Shown here: piece by piece, positions 6,202 to 37,006 of the stretch
Numbering within the stretch: the stretch's first letter is position 1
How the letters are laid out: the number at the start of each line of letters is the position of its first letter
Virus record (IMG/VR): IMGVR_UViG_3300037258_000126
Span: 1 to 38,746 of that record
Source: a virus
Strand: one strand, 5' to 3'
DNA: 38,746 nt
The notes under the pieces: model-generated
Told to the model about the DNA's origin: nothing
Databases searched by the model: none
Seen by the model: only the letters and a program-made list of their open reading frames with translations
Position numbers and translations under genes: made by a program

Positions 6202-6227
6202 TAGTTATAGCGCGTTTCGTACGGTTT
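6202..6227 (-). promoter_or_regulatory. Conserved promoter-like element A
   Basis: On the minus strand this reads AAACCGT-ACGAAA-CG-CGCTATAACTA, matching the element at 9978-10003 with a 1-bp gap and one substitution. Both contain a TATAAC -10 candidate but no clear TTGACA box 17 bp upstream. They may be read by a modified polymerase or an activator. Gene start is 28 bp away. Confidence 0.5.
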
Positions 6228-6228
6228 G

Positions 6229-6246
6229 ATAGTCAATCCTGACTTA
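6229..6246. promoter_or_regulatory. Operator palindrome 3, containing a stop codon
   Basis: ATAGTCA-ATCC-TGACTTA. The primase stop codon is the first triplet of the minus-strand copy. TTGACT is present on the minus strand, but the best -10 (TATAAC, 6205-6210) is 21 bp away. Confidence 0.75.
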
Positions 6247-7380
6247 CCGCCTACAGCCCGCATAGGGATTTTTTAGGCGCCACTGAATGTTGAGAATTGG
6301 AGTGTATTCTTGCGCCGCACCGAACGCATCGCGCACTGTCTGCGGCAGCACCTCGTTTGGGTCGCGCTCGAACGGCAGCGTGGCAATTCTCACCCGCAAG
6401 CCGATGCGCCGCAGAAGCTCCGCGGCATCCAGCGCGGCTTCGAGCGCCTTCACCTCGCCGTCCCACATGATCGTCACTTCTTCCAGACCCATCTTCATGA
6501 GCTGAATAAAGCGGCCGAGCTGGTCGTTGCCATCCATCGAGCCGTAGCTCAGATGTTTGCCGAATGATCCAACCGGGATCACGTCGCGAAGCGTCGTCTC
6601 CTCGTCGAACGCCTTCTTGATCGCCATAACATCGAAAGCGCCCTCGCCCATCACGATGCGCTTGGCACGACCAACGCTCTGTCCATTGAACAGGTATCGG
6701 CCTGTTCCGGGCAGACCCTTTGGGAAAAGGTATTTCTGACTGCCCTCGAAAACTCCGGTGATATCGCGGCCCTGAAACGTCATCATCTTGCCGTCGAGAT
6801 CGAACACGGGAATGATGATGCGGCCATCGAATATCTGATAGCCTTTCGATCCATCTTCTCGCTTAAACCAGAACTTGCCGCCAACGCAGTATCGAAGGTG
6901 AAAGTATTTCGCCAGCTCGCTATCGACACCGCGGGCTTGAAGATAGACGAGATTGCGCCCCTCGCTCGTCGGCAGCGGAAACGACGCCGGCAGAATTGCC
7001 TCGTCGTATTCGACAGCAACCATTGTGGTGCGTCGCGGGCGCCAGCCTTGATCGGCAAGCGCTTCCTTCACATGCTTAAATGTTTCCGCCCAAGCCTTCT
7101 TGCCGCTCGGGCTTGTATCTGATGGATCGTGGCCGAGCGACCAATGAATGAAGCCTAGCTTGCTGAACTTCTCATTGCAGACAAAGCAGTTGCCGGCGCC
7201 GGTGTCGGCGTTCAGATAGGTACGCCATCGCCGATCGCCGCACGCAGGACATTCCTGTGCGTGTATCTGCATACCCGATGAGCCGCGCGATTTCTTGAAC
7301 TCGCGGCCCTCGCGCTCGAACCATTGCTCCAGATCGAGCGAGTCCGAAAGCTCTTGGGTGTCATCCTTACTTTTCGACAC
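6244..7380 (-). CDS. DNA primase (zinc-binding plus TOPRIM)
   Basis: The start is placed at GTG 7380, with GAAGG about 7 bases upstream; TTG 7383 is the alternative. The 378-residue enzyme has a zinc finger C-x2-C-x17-C-x2-C (residues 44-68) like T7 gp4 and DnaG. A TOPRIM domain follows, with the catalytic Glu in MGEGAFD (about 246), the Asp in MWDGE (about 307) and a DPNEVLP motif (about 340). It would lay RNA primers on the phage lagging strand. It has no helicase domain; that is the separate gene upstream, whose 3' end it overlaps by 14 bp. The pair looks like a T7 gp4 split into two coupled cistrons. Confidence 0.92.
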   Translation of the reverse strand: MSKSKDDTQELSDSLDLEQWFEREGREFKKSRGSSGMQIHAQECPACGDRRWRTYLNADTGAGNCFVCNEKFSKLGFIHWSLGHDPSDTSPSGKKAWAETFKHVKEALADQGWRPRRTTMVAVEYDEAILPASFPLPTSEGRNLVYLQARGVDSELAKYFHLRYCVGGKFWFKREDGSKGYQIFDGRIIIPVFDLDGKMMTFQGRDITGVFEGSQKYLFPKGLPGTGRYLFNGQSVGRAKRIVMGEGAFDVMAIKKAFDEETTLRDVIPVGSFGKHLSYGSMDGNDQLGRFIQLMKMGLEEVTIMWDGEVKALEAALDAAELLRRIGLRVRIATLPFERDPNEVLPQTVRDAFGAAQEYTPILNIQWRLKNPYAGCRR

Positions 7381-8722
7381 CAAGCACCTTCGTCAGGAAC
7401 TTCATGCGTTCGCGGTCTTGTTTGATCCGAATTGTCAGCTCTGCCTGGTTACGGCTCGCGGCGAACACCAGACGAGCCTCGCCCGATGCAATCTCCGCAT
7501 CGGTCGCGTTGCCTGATATGACCAAGTCGGCGGTTCTGATCTTGTTGTAATCCTCCGCAACGTCCGTTGCTTTGGCGACCATTGCTTTGGCTCCATCGCG
7601 GTTGGTTTGTGTCGCTGTAAGGACCGCGGCGTTCTGCTCATAGGCGATCGCGCGCAGGTCGAGCCAGATGGAGCGAGAGTTCTCTCGCATATCATCGACG
7701 AAATGATCGGGACACATAATGTCCGCGTAATCCAAAACGATCATGTCGAAGATGATGCCGCGCGTGCGATACTTCTCTATCAGTCTGCGCAGCGCCGATG
7801 GCTTTAAGGTGCCGCTTGCAAAATCGTGGATCTTTAGAACGCCGTGCGCTTTCGCCTTGATGGCTTCTAGTTTGTCTCTCACGTCGAACGGAGTGGTCTT
7901 TAGCTCCTTCATCATCGTATCGGTCAGGCTTGCGTCGCATCGATCGGCGTAAATTAGCGCCGAGACCTCGCACGACCCAATGAATACGTTGTAGCCCGCT
8001 ATCGCGGCGTTCATGCCGAAGTCGCCCAGGCCCATCGACTTGCCCCACTTAGCGCGAGCCATAAGCGCTGACAGCTCTCGACGGCCCCAACCGCCGTGGT
8101 ACAGATGCTTGTCGATGTCTGGATAGCCGGTGGTGATGCCGGTGGGCTTAATTGTGCCCGCTGTGATCGCCACGCGCGTCGCGGTGCGACTATCGATCTC
8201 GTCGAAATAATCATATTCGCTGCCGTCGTCGGTCGCGCCGACGGTCATCGCCTTGCCCATCAAATCGCTGATCTTGCCGTAGTCGCGCTTTCCGAGCGCG
8301 TGAACCGAGGCAAGAAGCGCGTCTGATATCGCACGTTCTTTGGCGAACTCTGCAACCGAGTCGATCACAAAGTCGCGGTCGCTAATAGGCATGGTTAGAT
8401 AGTGCGCAAGCTTTTTCTTAAGCTCTGACACCATATCGGCGCGAATGCGCTTATCCGCGATCGCCGTCGCGAACACGCGCGTCATGGAGCTTTTGTCTGG
8501 AGCCTTTTTGTAGGTCTTGTAGAAGTCGAGCGCTACGCCGGTAATCGTCGCGTCAAGCTCGTCCTCGAAATACTCGGGCAACACCAGTCCTTCGGTGCGC
8601 TGAGCGAACACCGTGTCGCGCAATGTCAGCGCCACGATCTTGCTCTTGAACGCCGCGTCGAACTCGTAATGAGCCGGCGCCGCGCTCGCCGCGGGTTCCG
8701 CTGCTGGTGTCCCCGTCGTCAT
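7367..8722 (-). CDS. Replicative DNA helicase (DnaB/T7 gp4-type)
   Basis: The 451-residue protein has an N-terminal helical region (about 1-170) and a RecA-type motor. The Walker A is ARAKWGKS (222-229), with Ala in place of the usual first Gly. A CEVSA segment carries the Glu (252) that activates water in DnaB-type motors. The Walker B is MIVLDYADI (D331), and the sensor loop TATQTNRDG (369-377) is equivalent to the SQLNR loop of DnaB. It would unwind phage DNA as a hexamer with the adjacent primase. Its ATG overlaps the upstream stop (TAATG). An operator palindrome sits 49 bp before its start, inside the upstream gene. Confidence 0.92.
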   Translation of the reverse strand: MTTGTPAAEPAASAAPAHYEFDAAFKSKIVALTLRDTVFAQRTEGLVLPEYFEDELDATITGVALDFYKTYKKAPDKSSMTRVFATAIADKRIRADMVSELKKKLAHYLTMPISDRDFVIDSVAEFAKERAISDALLASVHALGKRDYGKISDLMGKAMTVGATDDGSEYDYFDEIDSRTATRVAITAGTIKPTGITTGYPDIDKHLYHGGWGRRELSALMARAKWGKSMGLGDFGMNAAIAGYNVFIGSCEVSALIYADRCDASLTDTMMKELKTTPFDVRDKLEAIKAKAHGVLKIHDFASGTLKPSALRRLIEKYRTRGIIFDMIVLDYADIMCPDHFVDDMRENSRSIWLDLRAIAYEQNAAVLTATQTNRDGAKAMVAKATDVAEDYNKIRTADLVISGNATDAEIASGEARLVFAASRNQAELTIRIKQDRERMKFLTKVLGVEK

Positions 8723-9024
8723 TAGGCCGCCGGGGTCTTTTCTTCGAAGCTCTGAATGTCGTGCTTAAAGTAAGTCACAACTGACTTATCGCTGTGGATT
8801 AACTGAATGGTGAATGCGTCCGCTGCCGTTAATTTCCCGATAACGACATCCATCACCGATGTCTCCACATCGCCTACTCTTTGAGTGAGTTGCTGCGCAA
8901 GGGTTAGCATAACCTCTTTGCCGATCAGCCGCTCAAGCTCCTGCTGATGCGACCAGCGCGGCATGGCCGTTTTCATGCGATGACCATTACCGCGGCGCTC
9001 AAGTTTGAATACGGGACGGGACAT
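8722..9024 (-). CDS. Small protein upstream of helicase; contains an internal operator
   Basis: ATG 9024 is chosen over the TTG at 9051 because GGAGAG lies 7 bases upstream. The 100-residue protein starts basic (RRGNGHRMK), then alternates helix and strand (LIGKEVMLTLAQQL, VGDVETSVMDVVIG, FTIQLIHSDKSVVTYFKHDIQSFEE). The pattern looks like a small Sm/Hfq-like or single-strand-binding accessory fold, but I cannot assign it. A perfect operator palindrome is embedded in the codons for DKSVVTYF near its 3' end. Confidence 0.7.
   Translation of the reverse strand: MSRPVFKLERRGNGHRMKTAMPRWSHQQELERLIGKEVMLTLAQQLTQRVGDVETSVMDVVIGKLTAADAFTIQLIHSDKSVVTYFKHDIQSFEEKTPAA
8771..8788. promoter_or_regulatory. 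Operator palindrome 4, intragenic, perfect arms
   Basis: TAAGTCA-CAAC-TGACTTA with both seven-base arms exact, inside the coding region of the gene at 8722-9024 and 49 bp before the helicase start. The spacer does not create TTGACT, and no good -10 follows at 17 bp. Confidence 0.85.
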
Positions 9025-9199: not shown

Positions 9200-9943
9200 T
9201 TAATTATAGCGCTGTTGCGCTGGTTGATTTGTGGCTAGTGCGGCGGCTCGCTGACCGATCTCGGAGCCAAGCCGCGAGTTAATCTTTTCGAGCGGTATCA
9301 GATCCTCGTCGATGAATGCGGCGAGCAGCTCCGGGCGATTACCCCGGTTGGCGATCTGCTCAAACAGATATTCGTGGTGATCGTTCTGAACCTTTAGATC
9401 GACGTACTTGGCGTTCGTGTAGCCGGGGTTCTTGCTGTAGTGGAAACGCACCTTCTGATGCTCGACCCAGTCGATCGCCGTTCGATCGGTGACCAGATCG
9501 GTGTAAAGGTGTTGCGGCCGCGGCAGGTAGTTCTGGTTCCAGTACCGCAGCGTCCAGTGAAAGGCGCTTGCGAGATAGATGTCGTAAGGAACACCCATCG
9601 CGTCGGCGACCTGGCGCGCACGCCAGATACCGGAGATCATGCGCTTCCGCGATTTCAACTTGTCGGTGGTCAGGCCCTTGATGTCGAACAGATCGTCGGG
9701 CAGCGGGCGCACGTACTCTCCGCGCGTCGTGTCGATGTTCTTCCGATACGCCAGCTTGTACGCCTTCTTAAACTCGTGAGCGAAGAGATACGTTGCTGCG
9801 ACGGGGCTCATGAAGCGGTAGTCGAACCACTTGCCGGTCATCAACGCGCGCTCGATATCGATCCAATCTTTACGAATGAACCTATTCTCAATTCGAGCGG
9901 CATCCATAGCGGATATATCGATGCCAAATATCTCTTCCGTCAT
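9200..9943 (-). CDS. Conserved-looking phage protein of unknown function
   Basis: A 247-residue soluble protein rich in Trp, Tyr and His, with no signal peptide, membrane segment or nucleotide-binding loop. An aromatic stretch (ASAFHWTLRYWNQNYLPRPQHLY, about 122-145) and a basic helix (KLKSRKRMISGIWRARQVADAMG) suggest a compact, possibly nucleic-acid-binding fold. It starts at ATG 9943 behind GGTGAG and follows promoter-like element B. It heads the string that leads into helicase and primase, so an early or replication role is likely by position only. Confidence 0.65.
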   Translation of the reverse strand: MTEEIFGIDISAMDAARIENRFIRKDWIDIERALMTGKWFDYRFMSPVAATYLFAHEFKKAYKLAYRKNIDTTRGEYVRPLPDDLFDIKGLTTDKLKSRKRMISGIWRARQVADAMGVPYDIYLASAFHWTLRYWNQNYLPRPQHLYTDLVTDRTAIDWVEHQKVRFHYSKNPGYTNAKYVDLKVQNDHHEYLFEQIANRGNRPELLAAFIDEDLIPLEKINSRLGSEIGQRAAALATNQPAQQRYN

Positions 9944-9964: not shown

Positions 9965-10003
9965 CGTAACGCTACGCTAGTTATAGCGTTTTCGTTACGG
10001 TTT
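9965..10003 (-). promoter_or_regulatory. Promoter-like element B within a nested inverted repeat
   Basis: The minus strand of 9978-10003 matches element A (6202-6227), with TATAAC as the -10 candidate. The same bases form a nested dyad: outer arms CGTAACG (9965-9971) and CGTTACG (9993-9999), inner arms CGCTA (9975-9979) and TAGCG (9984-9988). No operator palindrome is present here, so this promoter may escape the dispersed regulator. The gene start is about 20 bp from the dyad edge. Confidence 0.5.
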
Positions 10004-10771
10004 ATCGCAGTGAGTGATGGCCGCAATGTCCTTAGCGTCGTGCTCAATCAGAAAGGACCGAACCACGTCAAGCGGTACAGCGAAGCCAAGAATTTCATTT
10101 GTGCGATGGCCCAATACCGGGACGCCGATCAATTCACCTTTGGAGTTGTATGCGGCGCCGCCGGAATTACCGCCGATCACGCCGGAAGATACCTGCATCA
10201 ATGGCTGTTTAATCTGGGTATCGGTGCCGAATTTCAATAGATCGTAATTGCGCTGGACGCTCGACACGATCCCTTTCACGACGCTGGAGTAAAGCGAGCC
10301 CATCGGGTTGCCTACGACATAAGCCGTATCTCCGCGCACAGGGGCGACGCACGCAAGATGCGTTTCCTGGGTATTCGGAATCTTTGCCTTTATTTCCAGA
10401 AGAGCCAGATCGACATCGGCGTCAACCGCAAGCACCTTGACCTTGTAGACGACGGTACGAACCGCGTCGCCGCTCTGGAAATCAAGCTGACTAACGGTGC
10501 CGTCACGGAGCCGACGCACCTTCTCTTTGGTGATCTTGCCCTTGTCGTCCACGTTCTCTTTGTCGATGTCCTCGTACTGAGCAGCGACGCAGTGATTGGC
10601 GGTCAGGACCAGGCCGCGCGTCTTGTCGATCAGCGTGCCGGAGCAGCCGTCGTTCACCATGAAATTCGTCTGGTCGATTTGGGCGTTCATGTCGGCGATA
10701 TCCCACGCGAAGGCGGGAGTAGCCAACAGGCAGCCGAAAATCACCGATAAAGCAAGCAACGTATTCTTCAT
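9995..10771 (-). CDS. Secreted trypsin-like serine protease
   Basis: The 258-residue product has a Sec signal peptide (residues 1-22, cut after PAFA) and a chymotrypsin-fold protease: His in LTANHCV (about 59), Asp in VDADVDLALLEI (about 119) and Ser in GVIGGNSGGAAYN (about 199). GNSGG is the catalytic signature, so it should be active in the periplasm or outside the cell. ATG 10771 has AGGAG upstream. A phage-coded exported S1 protease is unusual. Candidates are host-envelope modification, lysis help or a lysogen trait. It is not the prohead protease, which would be cytoplasmic and lie with the head genes. Confidence 0.88.
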   Translation of the reverse strand: MKNTLLALSVIFGCLLATPAFAWDIADMNAQIDQTNFMVNDGCSGTLIDKTRGLVLTANHCVAAQYEDIDKENVDDKGKITKEKVRRLRDGTVSQLDFQSGDAVRTVVYKVKVLAVDADVDLALLEIKAKIPNTQETHLACVAPVRGDTAYVVGNPMGSLYSSVVKGIVSSVQRNYDLLKFGTDTQIKQPLMQVSSGVIGGNSGGAAYNSKGELIGVPVLGHRTNEILGFAVPLDVVRSFLIEHDAKDIAAITHCDKP

Positions 10772-10807: not shown

Positions 10808-11116
10808 TTACTCGGGGGTGCCGTCGTTCAGTCCAGGTACTGTGTCGGCTTCACTCGCAAGCTGCGTTGGCTTGTAGGAATACATATCGATCATCGCTTC
10901 GATGCCCGTCGCCGTGGTGTCGGCGTTGAGGATCTTGGATGTATAGATGTAACGAGTCTCGCCAGCGGCGAACGCCACAACGCGAGTCTCGCCGGCGCGT
11001 GTGATCATGGCGACATTACCGGCGCCTACGACTCGAATAGCCGAAGCTTCCGTTGTCAGCACCTGATCGTCCGAACTAACGTCAACAGGCACGATATCGA
11101 TTGCAATGTCGATCAT
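10808..11116 (-). CDS. Small beta-rich structural-type protein
   Basis: A 102-residue protein with alternating strands, ending in an acidic tail. The central pattern (GAGNVAMITRAGETRVVAFAAGETRYI, then LNADTTATGIEAMI) recalls small phage 'spike base' or virion-surface proteins of alphaproteobacterial phages. It has its own well-formed promoter with an operator in the spacer (11140-11168) and starts behind GGGAG. It is probably a virion component despite lying next to accessory genes. Confidence 0.6.
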   Translation of the reverse strand: MIDIAIDIVPVDVSSDDQVLTTEASAIRVVGAGNVAMITRAGETRVVAFAAGETRYIYTSKILNADTTATGIEAMIDMYSYKPTQLASEADTVPGLNDGTPE

Positions 11117-11139: not shown

Positions 11140-11168
11140 ATTATAGGTCAGTCAGCACTGACTTACAA
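11140..11168 (-). promoter_or_regulatory. Strong sigma70-type promoter with operator in the spacer
   Basis: TTGTAA (11168-11163), 17 bp, TATAAT (11145-11140) on the minus strand. The spacer is nearly filled by operator palindrome 5, so a bound regulator would exclude RNA polymerase. Drives the gene starting at 11116. Confidence 0.75.
11148..11165. promoter_or_regulatory. Operator palindrome 5
   Basis: TCAGTCA-GCAC-TGACTTA, one perfect arm and one with a single mismatch in the first two positions pair. It lies between the -35 and -10 boxes of the promoter at 11140-11168. Confidence 0.85.
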
Positions 11169-11170
11169 CA

Positions 11171-13027
11171 TTAACCCCGCGATTTGCCGTTTTGCAGCGT
11201 AATAATGGTCCTTTTGCCGTCTAGGTACTGGGCAATGCACGCCACTGCCCAGCCCGAAGGCCCGCGATTGTACCGTTGATCCAGCTCTGTGACGCCATCG
11301 ACGTAGACGCCCTCATCGATCTCGGGACTGTGTTTATCGCCGATCGACATTTTGCGGCCGAGACGGGCAAAGCCTGCTACCGTTCCCTTTGCGCCGTTGG
11401 CGCCACGAAACCCGTGGTGGCCACATTCAACGCCATCTACGATGAAACTATCGCCGTCATATATCCAATGAACCTTTTTCAGGCCCTTAGAGAACCGACG
11501 AATGGCGTATTCTAAAACGCTAAACTTCGGCGGCTTTCTGTAAGCGTCGAGCGCGTCGGCGACCGCCTCGCGATGCCCTAGATAGGCATCTTCAAGCTGT
11601 AGGCCGAGCCGAATGTTATTGCCGTCGCCACGATAGCGACCACTCCGAACGTAACCTTCCAGAGCGAGATCGTGATTGGACTCGACCACATTGATTTGCA
11701 TCCATGGTCGCTCTAACAGAGTCAAAAACACGGCTGCGCTTGTTATTTCATCCAACACCTTGTTTCGGCCACGATACGAAAGCTCGTGAGCCATTGCGTT
11801 ATCGCCGATGTTGTGCGGATTGCGCGACTCATTGTCGAATAGGTCGTGAACGAATATATCCTGCGGCTTGAGCCGATCGATTAGACCGCCCTCTTTGGTT
11901 CGCTTCTTGTTGATGATGTCGATGCCAAATATGGCCGAAGCGTTCTTGGGGCCGAGCTTGCGCTCGTGAACATCAGGCAGCGTCATATACCGAACTGTCG
12001 GCTGGCCTTTGATGACCTTGCCATTCCTAACCTGCACGTCGAAATCGTAGAAGGCGCCATCATTGCCCGCTGTAATCTGCCGGCAGAAGATGTCGCCGTC
12101 TTTGTCGAACTCGACGATCACCGCTCCGGCGACTTGGTGGAAGATCGCCTTGATCCCCGCCTTGCGCGGGATCACCTTCGGCTTGGTACATAGCCCGGTG
12201 GTCATGACCTGATGCGCCTGTCGATTGGGATCGGTCGATGGAATGCTCTTGAGCTGCCGCTTGGCGTGCGGGTACACGCCCCATCGGCCGCGCGTGTATG
12301 TGCCGAGATCCGATATCGGCGCCGACGCGGTCGGCAGAATGTTCATTTCGCCGCAGAATAGGAAGTTGTCGCCGATCGCCATCTGGCCGAAGCAAAGATA
12401 ATCCGCGATCTCCTTTGCGTAGGCGCGCGCTACCGGGTTGTTCTCACTCCACCACTGCGTCTCGTAGGTGCCGGGACCAACGACCAGGTCGGCTTTCAGA
12501 TGCTTCGCGTAGGCAACCAGATTGTCCCAGATCGGGTGAACCTCTGCATCGTTCTGCGCGCCCGTGAAGATGAACTTGCGGCCTTTGAACTTCTCGACCG
12601 GCTGAACTTTCAACGTGTCCGACAGCCAGGTCCGTGGCGTGCTCTCGCGCGTTCTCCGACCGCGGGAACCGCGGTCGTAGCTATGCGTGACATGGCTCTC
12701 GATAATGATCGCTTCGGGATTTATGACGGGATATTTCGTGCCGGTCACGAGATCGGTTATGTCGCCCGACAGCATCGTTGCGCGGGCCTGCGCGTGCTCT
12801 TCTGGCGTTCCCTCGTCGCGCGTGATCGCGCGGGCGCCGTTCTGACCAGTACGCACAATCAATTCAGGAAACGAATCGTCTTTATCAGGCAGTCGGCGAT
12901 AAATATCCGCCCAACCCTTCACTCGACGCGGTGTAATCCCGAGTTCTTTCGCAACGTCCGCTCTTGTTGGATATTTTTTCTTGTCGTTAAAGATTTCCGC
13001 GAATTTTTTCCAGTCGGGAGTGGTCAT
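11171..13027 (-). CDS. A1-like metallophosphoesterase with N-terminal HTH
   Basis: The 618-residue protein begins with a helix-turn-helix (about 18-42, RADVAKELGITPRRVKGWAD). A middle region follows with TGAQNDAEVH and a KADLVVGPGTYE strand. The C-terminal half is a calcineurin-type phosphoesterase: D-x-H in LPDVHERKLG, an Asp in VHDLFDN, NHD in VVESNHD, GHHG, and a final GDKHSPE. The order and flanking text recall a phage family that I associate with the T5 pre-early A1 protein; that link is from memory and tentative. It may cut or process DNA. Its own operator-controlled promoter lies 15 bp upstream, and it stands alone between the spanins and the virion-type gene. Confidence 0.72.
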   Translation of the reverse strand: MTTPDWKKFAEIFNDKKKYPTRADVAKELGITPRRVKGWADIYRRLPDKDDSFPELIVRTGQNGARAITRDEGTPEEHAQARATMLSGDITDLVTGTKYPVINPEAIIIESHVTHSYDRGSRGRRTRESTPRTWLSDTLKVQPVEKFKGRKFIFTGAQNDAEVHPIWDNLVAYAKHLKADLVVGPGTYETQWWSENNPVARAYAKEIADYLCFGQMAIGDNFLFCGEMNILPTASAPISDLGTYTRGRWGVYPHAKRQLKSIPSTDPNRQAHQVMTTGLCTKPKVIPRKAGIKAIFHQVAGAVIVEFDKDGDIFCRQITAGNDGAFYDFDVQVRNGKVIKGQPTVRYMTLPDVHERKLGPKNASAIFGIDIINKKRTKEGGLIDRLKPQDIFVHDLFDNESRNPHNIGDNAMAHELSYRGRNKVLDEITSAAVFLTLLERPWMQINVVESNHDLALEGYVRSGRYRGDGNNIRLGLQLEDAYLGHREAVADALDAYRKPPKFSVLEYAIRRFSKGLKKVHWIYDGDSFIVDGVECGHHGFRGANGAKGTVAGFARLGRKMSIGDKHSPEIDEGVYVDGVTELDQRYNRGPSGWAVACIAQYLDGKRTIITLQNGKSRG

Positions 13028-13041
13028 CCTGCCTCGCGTGA

Positions 13042-13059
13042 TAAGTCAGCGTTTACTTA
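13042..13059. promoter_or_regulatory. Operator palindrome 6, directly after a TATAAT box
   Basis: TAAGTCA-GCGT-TTACTTA. On the minus strand TATAAT (13065-13060), preceded by an extended -10 TGC, abuts the site, so the palindrome covers the start of transcription. The A1-like gene starts 15 bp later. Confidence 0.8.
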
Positions 13060-14286: not shown

Positions 14287-14304
14287 AAAGTCAGTGCTGA
14301 CTTA
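14287..14304. promoter_or_regulatory. Operator palindrome 7, overlapping the end of a TATAAT box
   Basis: AAAGTCA-GTGC-TGACTTA. The minus-strand TATAAT (14309-14304), in the context GCGCTATAAT, overlaps the site by one base. The first lysis gene starts 19 bp downstream. Confidence 0.85.
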
Positions 14305-16377: not shown

Positions 16378-17733
16378 TTAACTGGCAATAATCTGTGCCA
16401 CTCGTCGTGGCGGGTTATGAGCGGACGTGTCATCGACAGCATTACCCGCTTCGGCAAAGCTGTTGCGGAATATCGCCTTAACTGTGATCGCGTCTTGCGC
16501 ATTAGCCGCCTCGACAACGTGAGATGGATAAATCGCAAGCGTAGCGACCGTATCAAGCGCCGTCGCCGCTTCCATCAATCCGTTTGGATCAATATCGAAC
16601 GAAACTGGCGCATCCATAGCCGCCATAGCGTCCGACATCGCATTGCGAAGAATAGCGAGAGACGCCGTGGTGTCAGTGGCGTTTGCTGCTTCGGACACCG
16701 ATGTTGGGTGTACCGATCCCGAGCCTGGTGCGTCCTGCGCGGACGCAACTTCAATCACCATGGATGGTGAGATCGCAAGCGTCGCGGATGTTTCGGTCGC
16801 CGCTCCATTCTCAGCCACTGTCGATGGCGAGATAGCAAGCGTCGCGCATGTATCCACGGCCGAGGCCGCTTCCGAAATTATGCTCGGATCAATATCGAAA
16901 GAGTTTGGATTATCCGAGGCCGAGCCAGCGTCGGTTCGGCCCGAAGGATAGATAGCCAAAGAAGCTGGTGTATCCAGCGCCGCGCCCGCCTCAACAACAG
17001 TCGAGGGCGATACGGCAATCGTAGCCGATGTGTCGAGCGCAGCGCCTGCCTCGACTATCGCTGATGGTGAAATAGCAAGTGTTGCCGATGTGTCCATCGC
17101 CGCCACGGCTTCAACAGCCGCCATCACATAGGGCGTCGAAGATCCTTCGATTTCCGCGGCGGTTCCCGACTCCGCTACGCTATTTGGATACACAGCGAGA
17201 GAAGCTGGCGTATCCTGAGCGGCGCCGGCTTCCGCGACAGTCGAGGGAGACACCGCGATCGTGGCGGAGCTATCAGCGGCGGCGCCGGCTTCCGCGACAG
17301 TCGAGGGAGACACCGCGATCGTGGCGCAAATATCTACCGCTGACGCAGCTTCACTGACCCCATTAGGATCGATATCAAAGGAGACTGGCGCATCTAGCGC
17401 CACAACAAATTCTACTACCGGCGATGGATAAATTGCCAGAGACGCAACGGTGTCAGCCGTACTGCTCGCCTCTGCAACAGAAGCAGGATGTATTGAAATA
17501 GAATCTGTAGCGTTAGTTGCCGCCCCCGCCTCTGTGACCGAGCTGGGGTATACAGCAAGCGACGCCGGAGTGTCAGAGGCCGATCCCGCCTCTACAACCG
17601 AGTCATTATAGGTCGCTACCGAGGTCGATACGGGCGTATCGACCGCGCTACCCGCTTCAGCAACGGATACATTATAAGAATTTAATAGAAATTCGCCGAC
17701 GGAAATTTCGCCGACTGATTCATCACCTATCAC
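16378..17733 (-). CDS. Tail-associated protein of about twenty 20-residue repeats
   Basis: GTG 17733 is the only start; a TAG lies six codons upstream. Almost all of the 451 residues are a 20-residue repeat of the form S/T-L-A-x-x-P-S-x-V-x-E-A-x-x-A-x-D-T-x-A, for example TIAVSPSTVAEAGAAADSSA. There are about 20 copies in near-perfect register, with Asp and Glu at fixed positions. Such regular units suggest a rigid solenoid or fibre shaft. Two neighbouring units are identical over 48 nt, so the array is still expanding or contracting. It lies among fibre genes. The last 20 residues break the pattern with a basic PPRRVA. Confidence 0.72.
   Translation of the reverse strand: MIGDESVGEISVGEFLLNSYNVSVAEAGSAVDTPVSTSVATYNDSVVEAGSASDTPASLAVYPSSVTEAGAATNATDSISIHPASVAEASSTADTVASLAIYPSPVVEFVVALDAPVSFDIDPNGVSEAASAVDICATIAVSPSTVAEAGAAADSSATIAVSPSTVAEAGAAQDTPASLAVYPNSVAESGTAAEIEGSSTPYVMAAVEAVAAMDTSATLAISPSAIVEAGAALDTSATIAVSPSTVVEAGAALDTPASLAIYPSGRTDAGSASDNPNSFDIDPSIISEAASAVDTCATLAISPSTVAENGAATETSATLAISPSMVIEVASAQDAPGSGSVHPTSVSEAANATDTTASLAILRNAMSDAMAAMDAPVSFDIDPNGLMEAATALDTVATLAIYPSHVVEAANAQDAITVKAIFRNSFAEAGNAVDDTSAHNPPRRVAQIIAS
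17219..17326. repeat. Recent 60-bp tandem duplication
   Basis: Positions 17219-17266 and 17279-17326 are identical over 48 nt and exactly 60 bp apart, matching one 20-residue protein repeat. Other units of the array are much more diverged, so this copy is recent. Confidence 0.9.
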
Positions 17734-31879: not shown

Positions 31880-31907
31880 ATTTACGCGGGTACTAAAGAT
31901 AAGTCAA
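31879..31907 (-). promoter_or_regulatory. Possible leftward promoter, -35 inside operator 14
   Basis: TTGACT (31907-31902), 17 bp, TAAATA (31884-31879). The -10 touches the terminator hairpin, so a transcript starting here would miss most of the stem's first arm. This would give a terminator-free message for the chaperone and tape genes. Confidence 0.45.
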
Positions 31908-31917
31908 GACTGACTTA
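31900..31917. promoter_or_regulatory. Operator palindrome 14, perfect arms
   Basis: TAAGTCA-AGAC-TGACTTA, directly after the tail-tube stop codon (31918-31920). Confidence 0.92.
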
Positions 31918-36988: not shown

Positions 36989-37006
36989 TAAGTCAATACT
37001 GACTGA
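36989..37006. promoter_or_regulatory. Operator palindrome 17
   Basis: TAAGTCA-ATAC-TGACTGA, 10 bp after the capsid stop and directly before the terminator. TTGACT is present on the minus strand, but the 17-bp position falls in the hairpin, so a promoter is unlikely here. Confidence 0.85.

Follow-up and report, generated by a model that had tools for sequence, protein, structure and literature searches.

A predicted promoter-distal operator, probably a transcriptional roadblock, at the end of an Hfq-like gene before the replication genes of a putative RepC phage-plasmid

Dispersed repressor sites in phages and phage-plasmids

Cluster A mycobacteriophages carry up to ~30 sites for a repressor of the L5 gp71 type across their genomes, some at promoters and most elsewhere, where they are proposed to stop elongation (PMC6550527, PMC9283540). 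These stoperators are asymmetric 13-bp sequences oriented with transcription, their repressor is a monomer of ~183 aa with an HTH and a Stoperator domain, and the consensus of the sites differs from clade to clade in step with the repressor (PMC6550527, PMC9283540). The site analyzed here lies at position 8771 of a 38,746-nt viral sequence (IMG/VR record IMGVR_UViG_3300037258_000126; hereafter the window). It lies downstream of promoter-like elements, a geometry that would allow a stop of elongation as proposed for the stoperators. Unlike them, it belongs to a set of 18-bp palindromes with mismatches on either arm, and its candidate repressor is a short HTH_3 protein (130–150 aa) of alphaproteobacterial phage-plasmids. 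By analogy, then, the site would work like a mycobacteriophage stoperator but is not of that family, being palindromic and found in unrelated hosts.

The C1 repressor of P1, also a phage-plasmid, likewise has many sites dispersed over the genome, although the P1 operators differ from the window set in being asymmetric and acting at promoters. C1 is not known to be related to the XRE-type protein discussed below. SSU5-type phage-plasmids encode a DnaB-like helicase homologous to that of the window (~38% identity), but SSU5 is a Salmonella (enterobacterial) phage-plasmid, unlike the alphaproteobacterial group of the window. Dispersed TAAGTA-N6-TACTTA palindromes stand before SSU5 genes (14 in 40 kb vs. 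0.55 expected; 27 genome-wide vs. 5 in the reversed control). No palindrome lies just before the SSU5 helicase gene, a profile search found no XRE homologue in SSU5 or in a Stenotrophomonas relative, and Stenotrophomonas phage ANB28 has no dispersed palindromes. The arrangement may be wider than the group of the window, reaching SSU5-type phage-plasmids.

RepC phage-plasmids of Rhizobiales (pLM21S1, V1VFA-S, RHph_X66, pAMS5a) have the gene order, the helicase operator and an XRE gene beside repC in common with the group of the window, and differ in operator arms, which vary by clade, and in some cases by having no Hfq-like ORF. Papers on these elements mention a DNA-binding regulator and no operator set (PMC12509600, PMC5537653). 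We found no published report of the set in the literature searched, the coverage of which mostly excludes subscription journals.

The window probably represents part of a large siphophage, a ~117-kb RepC phage-plasmid of a kind found in Alphaproteobacteria. Its helicase is closest to those of IMG/VR contigs (54–59% identity), followed by those of complete elements of ~115–122 kb (Methylobacterium pAMS5a, M. oryzae, Shinella, Sinorhizobium pLM21S1 and Rhizobium phages), and a nucleotide search for close named phages returned only tRNA and short A1-gene matches. All annotated complete relatives possess repC; the region of repC and the XRE gene falls outside the window fragment. A cluster at 1072–1618 (−) consists of five genes for tRNAs of Val, Thr, Pro, Ile and Met, the Pro gene being ~91% like one in Achromobacter phages.

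The helicase site and the operator set

The palindrome, TAAGTCA-CAAC-TGACTTA, has two exact 7-bp arms (Table 1) and is crossed on the gene strand by the codons GAT AAG TCA GTT GTG ACT TAC. An earlier note on this DNA had described an exact operator inside a coding region, 49 bp before the helicase gene, that also encodes DKSVVTYF-type residues and is followed by no good −10. Our analysis confirms the observation: the palindrome is perfect and ends 48 nt before the helicase ATG at 8722, the codons spell D-K-S-V-V-T-Y, and no −10 hexamer follows it in the window. On the minus strand no sigma70-like promoter was predicted in its vicinity, and both flanks are coding. Given the protein sequence and the codon usage of the window, the probability of a perfect palindrome in this frame is ~0.0012.

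Table 1. Coordinates of the helicase operator, neighboring genes, promoter-like elements and further operators in the window
Feature	Position	Strand	Details
DNA primase	6244–7383	−	Overlaps the end of the helicase gene; phrog_47 (2e-45)
Next operator	6229–6246	−	2 mismatches; 35 nt on, promoter-like GCTATAACT at 6211 (−)
DnaB-like replicative helicase	7367–8722	−	First gene past the operator; phrog_19 (7e-62), PF03796
Putative Hfq/Sm-like small protein, 100 aa	8722–9024	−	ATG at 9024, RBS-like GGAGAGAAG; AlphaFold2 fold, Foldseek, weak profile matches
Perfect palindromic operator, predicted	8771–8788	−	Gene-strand sequence TAAGTCAGTTGTGACTTA, encoding part of D-K-S-V-V-T-Y; kept in every relative compared
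Small membrane-type ORF, 46 aa	9036–9176	−	Between P2 and the Hfq-like gene; from translation
Conserved phage protein of unknown function	9200–9943	−	Between P1 and P2; phrog_2500 (5e-50)
Promoter-like element P2	9202–9210	−	GCTATAATT; 422 nt ahead of the helicase operator; no operator of its own
Promoter-like element P1	9979–9987	−	GCTATAACT; precedes gene 9200–9943, ~1.2 kb ahead of the helicase operator; no operator of its own
Previous operator, upstream	11148–11165	−	1 mismatch; before gene 10808–11116
Operator after promoter-like element	13042–13059	−	Immediately follows promoter-like GCTATAATT (13067, −); a textbook case of overlap with a promoter
Operator after promoter-like element	14287–14304	−	Directly after promoter-like GCTATAATA (14311, −)

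The site is conserved in place in 10/10 IMG/VR relatives and in Methylobacterium, Shinella, Sinorhizobium, Rhizobium and Pararhizobium elements, a set of relatives not fully independent of each other. It lies within the small ORF just ahead of the helicase in the IMG/VR relatives, pAMS5a, M. oryzae and Shinella, as in the window. The earlier note had suggested comparing synonymous conservation at these codons: all 11 ORF-bearing sequences use TCA for Ser and ACT for Thr (background 9% and 12% in window genes), while the residue between them varies freely. Where the ORF is absent (pLM21S1, V1VFA-S and X66), the site is kept as TAAGTAAGCACTTACTTA in the gap before the helicase, at −35, and N1_10, Y2_11 and Pararhizobium carry the clade variant TCAGTAAATATTGATTGA, 16–17 nt before the helicase start. 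Relatives that keep the protein and lose the palindrome, which the note had named as the case against its reading, were not found among those compared. Because the site stays in place in the ORF with rare TCA/ACT codons, in the gap of relatives lacking the ORF, and with arms that differ by clade, it is kept by selection on the DNA and not by coding.

The same pattern recurs throughout the window, at a density of ~1 per 2 kb. Nineteen sites have ≤3 mismatches (shuffle mean 0.56, maximum 2), six of them perfect, and with two mismatches allowed 18 remain, against none for a reversed control pattern. Seventeen of the 19 are in or at the edge of gaps, 14–96 nt ahead of a gene start, if site 2827 is included, the gene of which very likely starts at ~2799. 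Only 8771 and 22032 (2 mismatches) are well inside genes, and of these 8771 alone is perfect. All recognized window genes are on the minus strand. Copies are carried by all ten IMG/VR relatives (31–43 in the two near-complete ones), and complete relatives have tens of them. In complete pAMS5a there are 51 copies of TMAGTCA-N4-TGACTKA, mostly within ~100 nt of a start codon; 38 of the 51 are fully intergenic in a genome that is 10.4% intergenic (binomial p ~5e-27). The arms differ by clade, being TAAGTCA/TCAGTCA in the window and the Methylobacterium group, TAAGTAA in V1VFA-S, X66 and pLM21S1, and TCAGTAAATATTGATTGA-like in N1_10, Y2_11 and Pararhizobium.

Complete relatives encode an XRE-type (HTH_3) regulator of 130–150 aa beside repC, with an HTH_3 profile match in some members. 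Since its gene is flanked by sites (in at least eight relatives) and its recognition-helix region differs between the same clades as the operator arms, this protein is the best candidate for the repressor that would bind the sites. The window fragment holds no XRE gene, and the identity of its repressor is taken from the relatives. The reading of the palindrome as an operator is strongly supported by the many copies, their intergenic enrichment, the conserved position, half-sites that vary independently (see below) and the copies on both sides of a candidate repressor gene.

The Hfq-like gene and its promoter-like elements

The operator overlaps the codons of a Sm2-like strand (...SVVTYFKHDI) in the product of the ORF just upstream of the helicase, which very probably starts at ATG 9024 and not at TTG 9051. 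AlphaFold2, run on eight homologues, gave an N-terminal helix and five strands (pLDDT 75), for which Foldseek returned mainly Hfq structures (probability 1.00, target-length TM up to 0.85, E ~5e-3 to 3e-2). Profile matches are weaker: the window protein has no Pfam match, the best match among its relatives is to Hfq (E 0.0083, weak), and PDB profile matches are likewise weak (E 0.27–0.6). From the modeled fold we assign the product, with moderate confidence, to the Hfq/Sm fold. The strand ending in FKH can be likened to the YKH of bacterial Hfq.

The family, with conserved motifs WSHQ-x-EL and ADQF, is found just upstream of the helicase in the window and in L007, L008, L009, L010, L011, L016, L014, L143 and L017, and is annotated as hypothetical only. 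Further upstream, the window has a secreted trypsin-like protease (phrog_9683; 9995–10771, −) where relatives have PhoH and GIY-YIG genes.

A promoter-like element, approximately GAAACGCCG-N11-GCTATAAY, recurs before early genes in pAMS5a (L140–L142) and in the window at 6211, 13067 and 14311. The same phage-plasmids encode a sigma-70-family protein, and the motif may be a phage-sigma promoter. Counted from the first base of GCTATA, operators in pAMS5a start either 7–16 nt (mostly 11) downstream or 35 nt upstream; the 35-nt spacing also occurs in the window, at 6229–6246, and recurs in relatives. Operators at these distances are ordinary promoter-overlapping operators. Among pAMS5a sites without GCTATA, TG stands at −12 from the operator in 18/43 (other offsets mostly 0–6), with no clear recurrence in other genomes as a late promoter motif.

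The surroundings of the helicase site follow the conserved order P1, P2, Hfq-like gene, operator, helicase, primase. A P2-like element lies 249–293 nt upstream of the operator in most ORF-bearing relatives, the longer distance of 422 nt in the window being due to the extra small ORF, and many have a P1-like element ~1,050–1,200 nt upstream. No ORF-bearing relative has an operator (≤3 mismatches) within 60 nt of P2; in pAMS5a, P2 is followed by ACAGTCAGCAATCAGAGA, with 4 mismatches, which could be a weak operator. There are exceptions: one relative (L011) is without P2, M. oryzae is without P1, P1 of Shinella has an adjoining operator, and the −35 part of P2 in the window is not obvious. Because promoter-like GCTATA elements lie 250–420 and ~1,050–1,200 nt upstream in most ORF-bearing relatives, usually without an operator of their own, the helicase site is predicted to be a promoter-distal operator. 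The distance is not a conserved feature of the helicase site as such, since a promoter-like element lies only ~37 nt before it in the Rhizobium clade and a promoter-like TCTATAG element ends just before it in N1_10 (10 nt spacing).

Proposed mechanism and alternatives

We propose that the 18-mers are genome-wide binding sites of the master repressor of a RepC-type phage-plasmid. As long as the phage persists as a plasmid, dimers of the repressor would occupy sites before most lytic genes and, at most recognizable promoters, where site and promoter overlap, would block initiation. Site 8771 is placed differently: it falls within the last part of the Hfq-like gene, and neither of the two promoter-like elements upstream of it has an operator. 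Repressor bound there would stop RNA polymerase coming from P1 or P2 just before the helicase and primase genes, so that the Hfq-like gene could be transcribed while the replication genes stay off in the plasmid state. The sites, their conservation, the clade variants and the layout are observed and the Sm fold comes from a model; the identity of the repressor, dimer binding, promoter activity and the block are our interpretation. We consider it probable that the window carries such a set of repressor sites together with a roadblock at 8771 between the Hfq-like gene and the helicase and primase genes. The earlier note had also read the site as a roadblock; the geometry, with promoter-like elements far upstream and the operator just before the helicase, speaks for this, the block itself is deduced from it, and in the Rhizobium clade, with its ~37-nt spacing, the site may act by plain promoter-proximal repression.

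More tentatively, a single dimeric repressor may silence nearly all lytic genes from tens of palindromes throughout a whole group of alphaproteobacterial phage-plasmids, perhaps in SSU5-type elements too, with a promoter-distal roadblock that separates, within one operon, the replication genes from an Hfq-like RNA chaperone expressed in lysogeny. The site set offers a concrete immunity system for widespread, little-studied phage-plasmids, with a predicted repressor, its sites, clade-specific specificity and immunity groups. If the roadblock is real, a stoperator-like mechanism built on an ordinary dimeric HTH protein would have arisen independently of that in mycobacteriophages. The system also draws attention to Hfq-like proteins that phages encode and may produce during dormancy.

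The main rival, which we regard as rather unlikely, is that 8771 is an ordinary promoter operator, with the repressor blocking initiation at an unrecognized promoter at the end of the Hfq-like gene. The TCTATAG element of N1_10 and the short spacing in the Rhizobium clade agree with this, as does the position of nearly all other sites just ahead of start codons, many without a recognizable promoter, such that other promoter types may exist. In the window, however, no −10-like element lies near the site and both sides are coding, and the recognizable elements are conserved 250–420 nt upstream.

Binding by a ParB/KorB-like clamp protein in place of the XRE protein, with sliding, silencing at a distance and a tie to plasmid partitioning, seems improbable. 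These elements do encode ParA/ParB-like proteins (PMC12509600), and KorB silences at a distance on plasmid RK2 (PMC11790492), but the sites are spread over most gene starts instead of clustering at par genes, and the arms of the operator change from clade to clade in parallel with the recognition-helix residues of XRE.

An RNA hairpin acting in the transcript, as a processing or terminator-like element, is very improbable. The RNA can form a 7-bp stem, but a weak one (z −1.3 at 8771), and at positions 2/17, the most variable, the arms vary independently without compensatory changes (23 paired vs. 24.1 expected); the letters and not the pairing are conserved, and the hairpin was rejected on these grounds. 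Independent variation of the half-sites fits two protein half-sites, as for a dimer, unlike an RNA stem. No Rfam families besides tRNAs were found. Least probable of all is a palindrome kept by the protein through a need of the Sm2-like strand for K/Q-S-x-V/L-T, residues that are partly conserved, which we rejected given the fixed rare codons, a probability of ~0.001 given the protein, and the contradicting persistence of the site without the ORF in pLM21S1, V1VFA-S and X66.

Two further features of the window were observed. A 451-aa ORF at 16378–17733 (−) is highly repetitive, with SVAEAGAAxDTxASLAIxPS-like units. In the structural region, operators at 36989–37006 and 31900–31917 of the window, and at 12913 and 40257 of pAMS5a, have a stop codon on one side and, on the other, a hairpin with a T-rich stretch resembling an intrinsic terminator.
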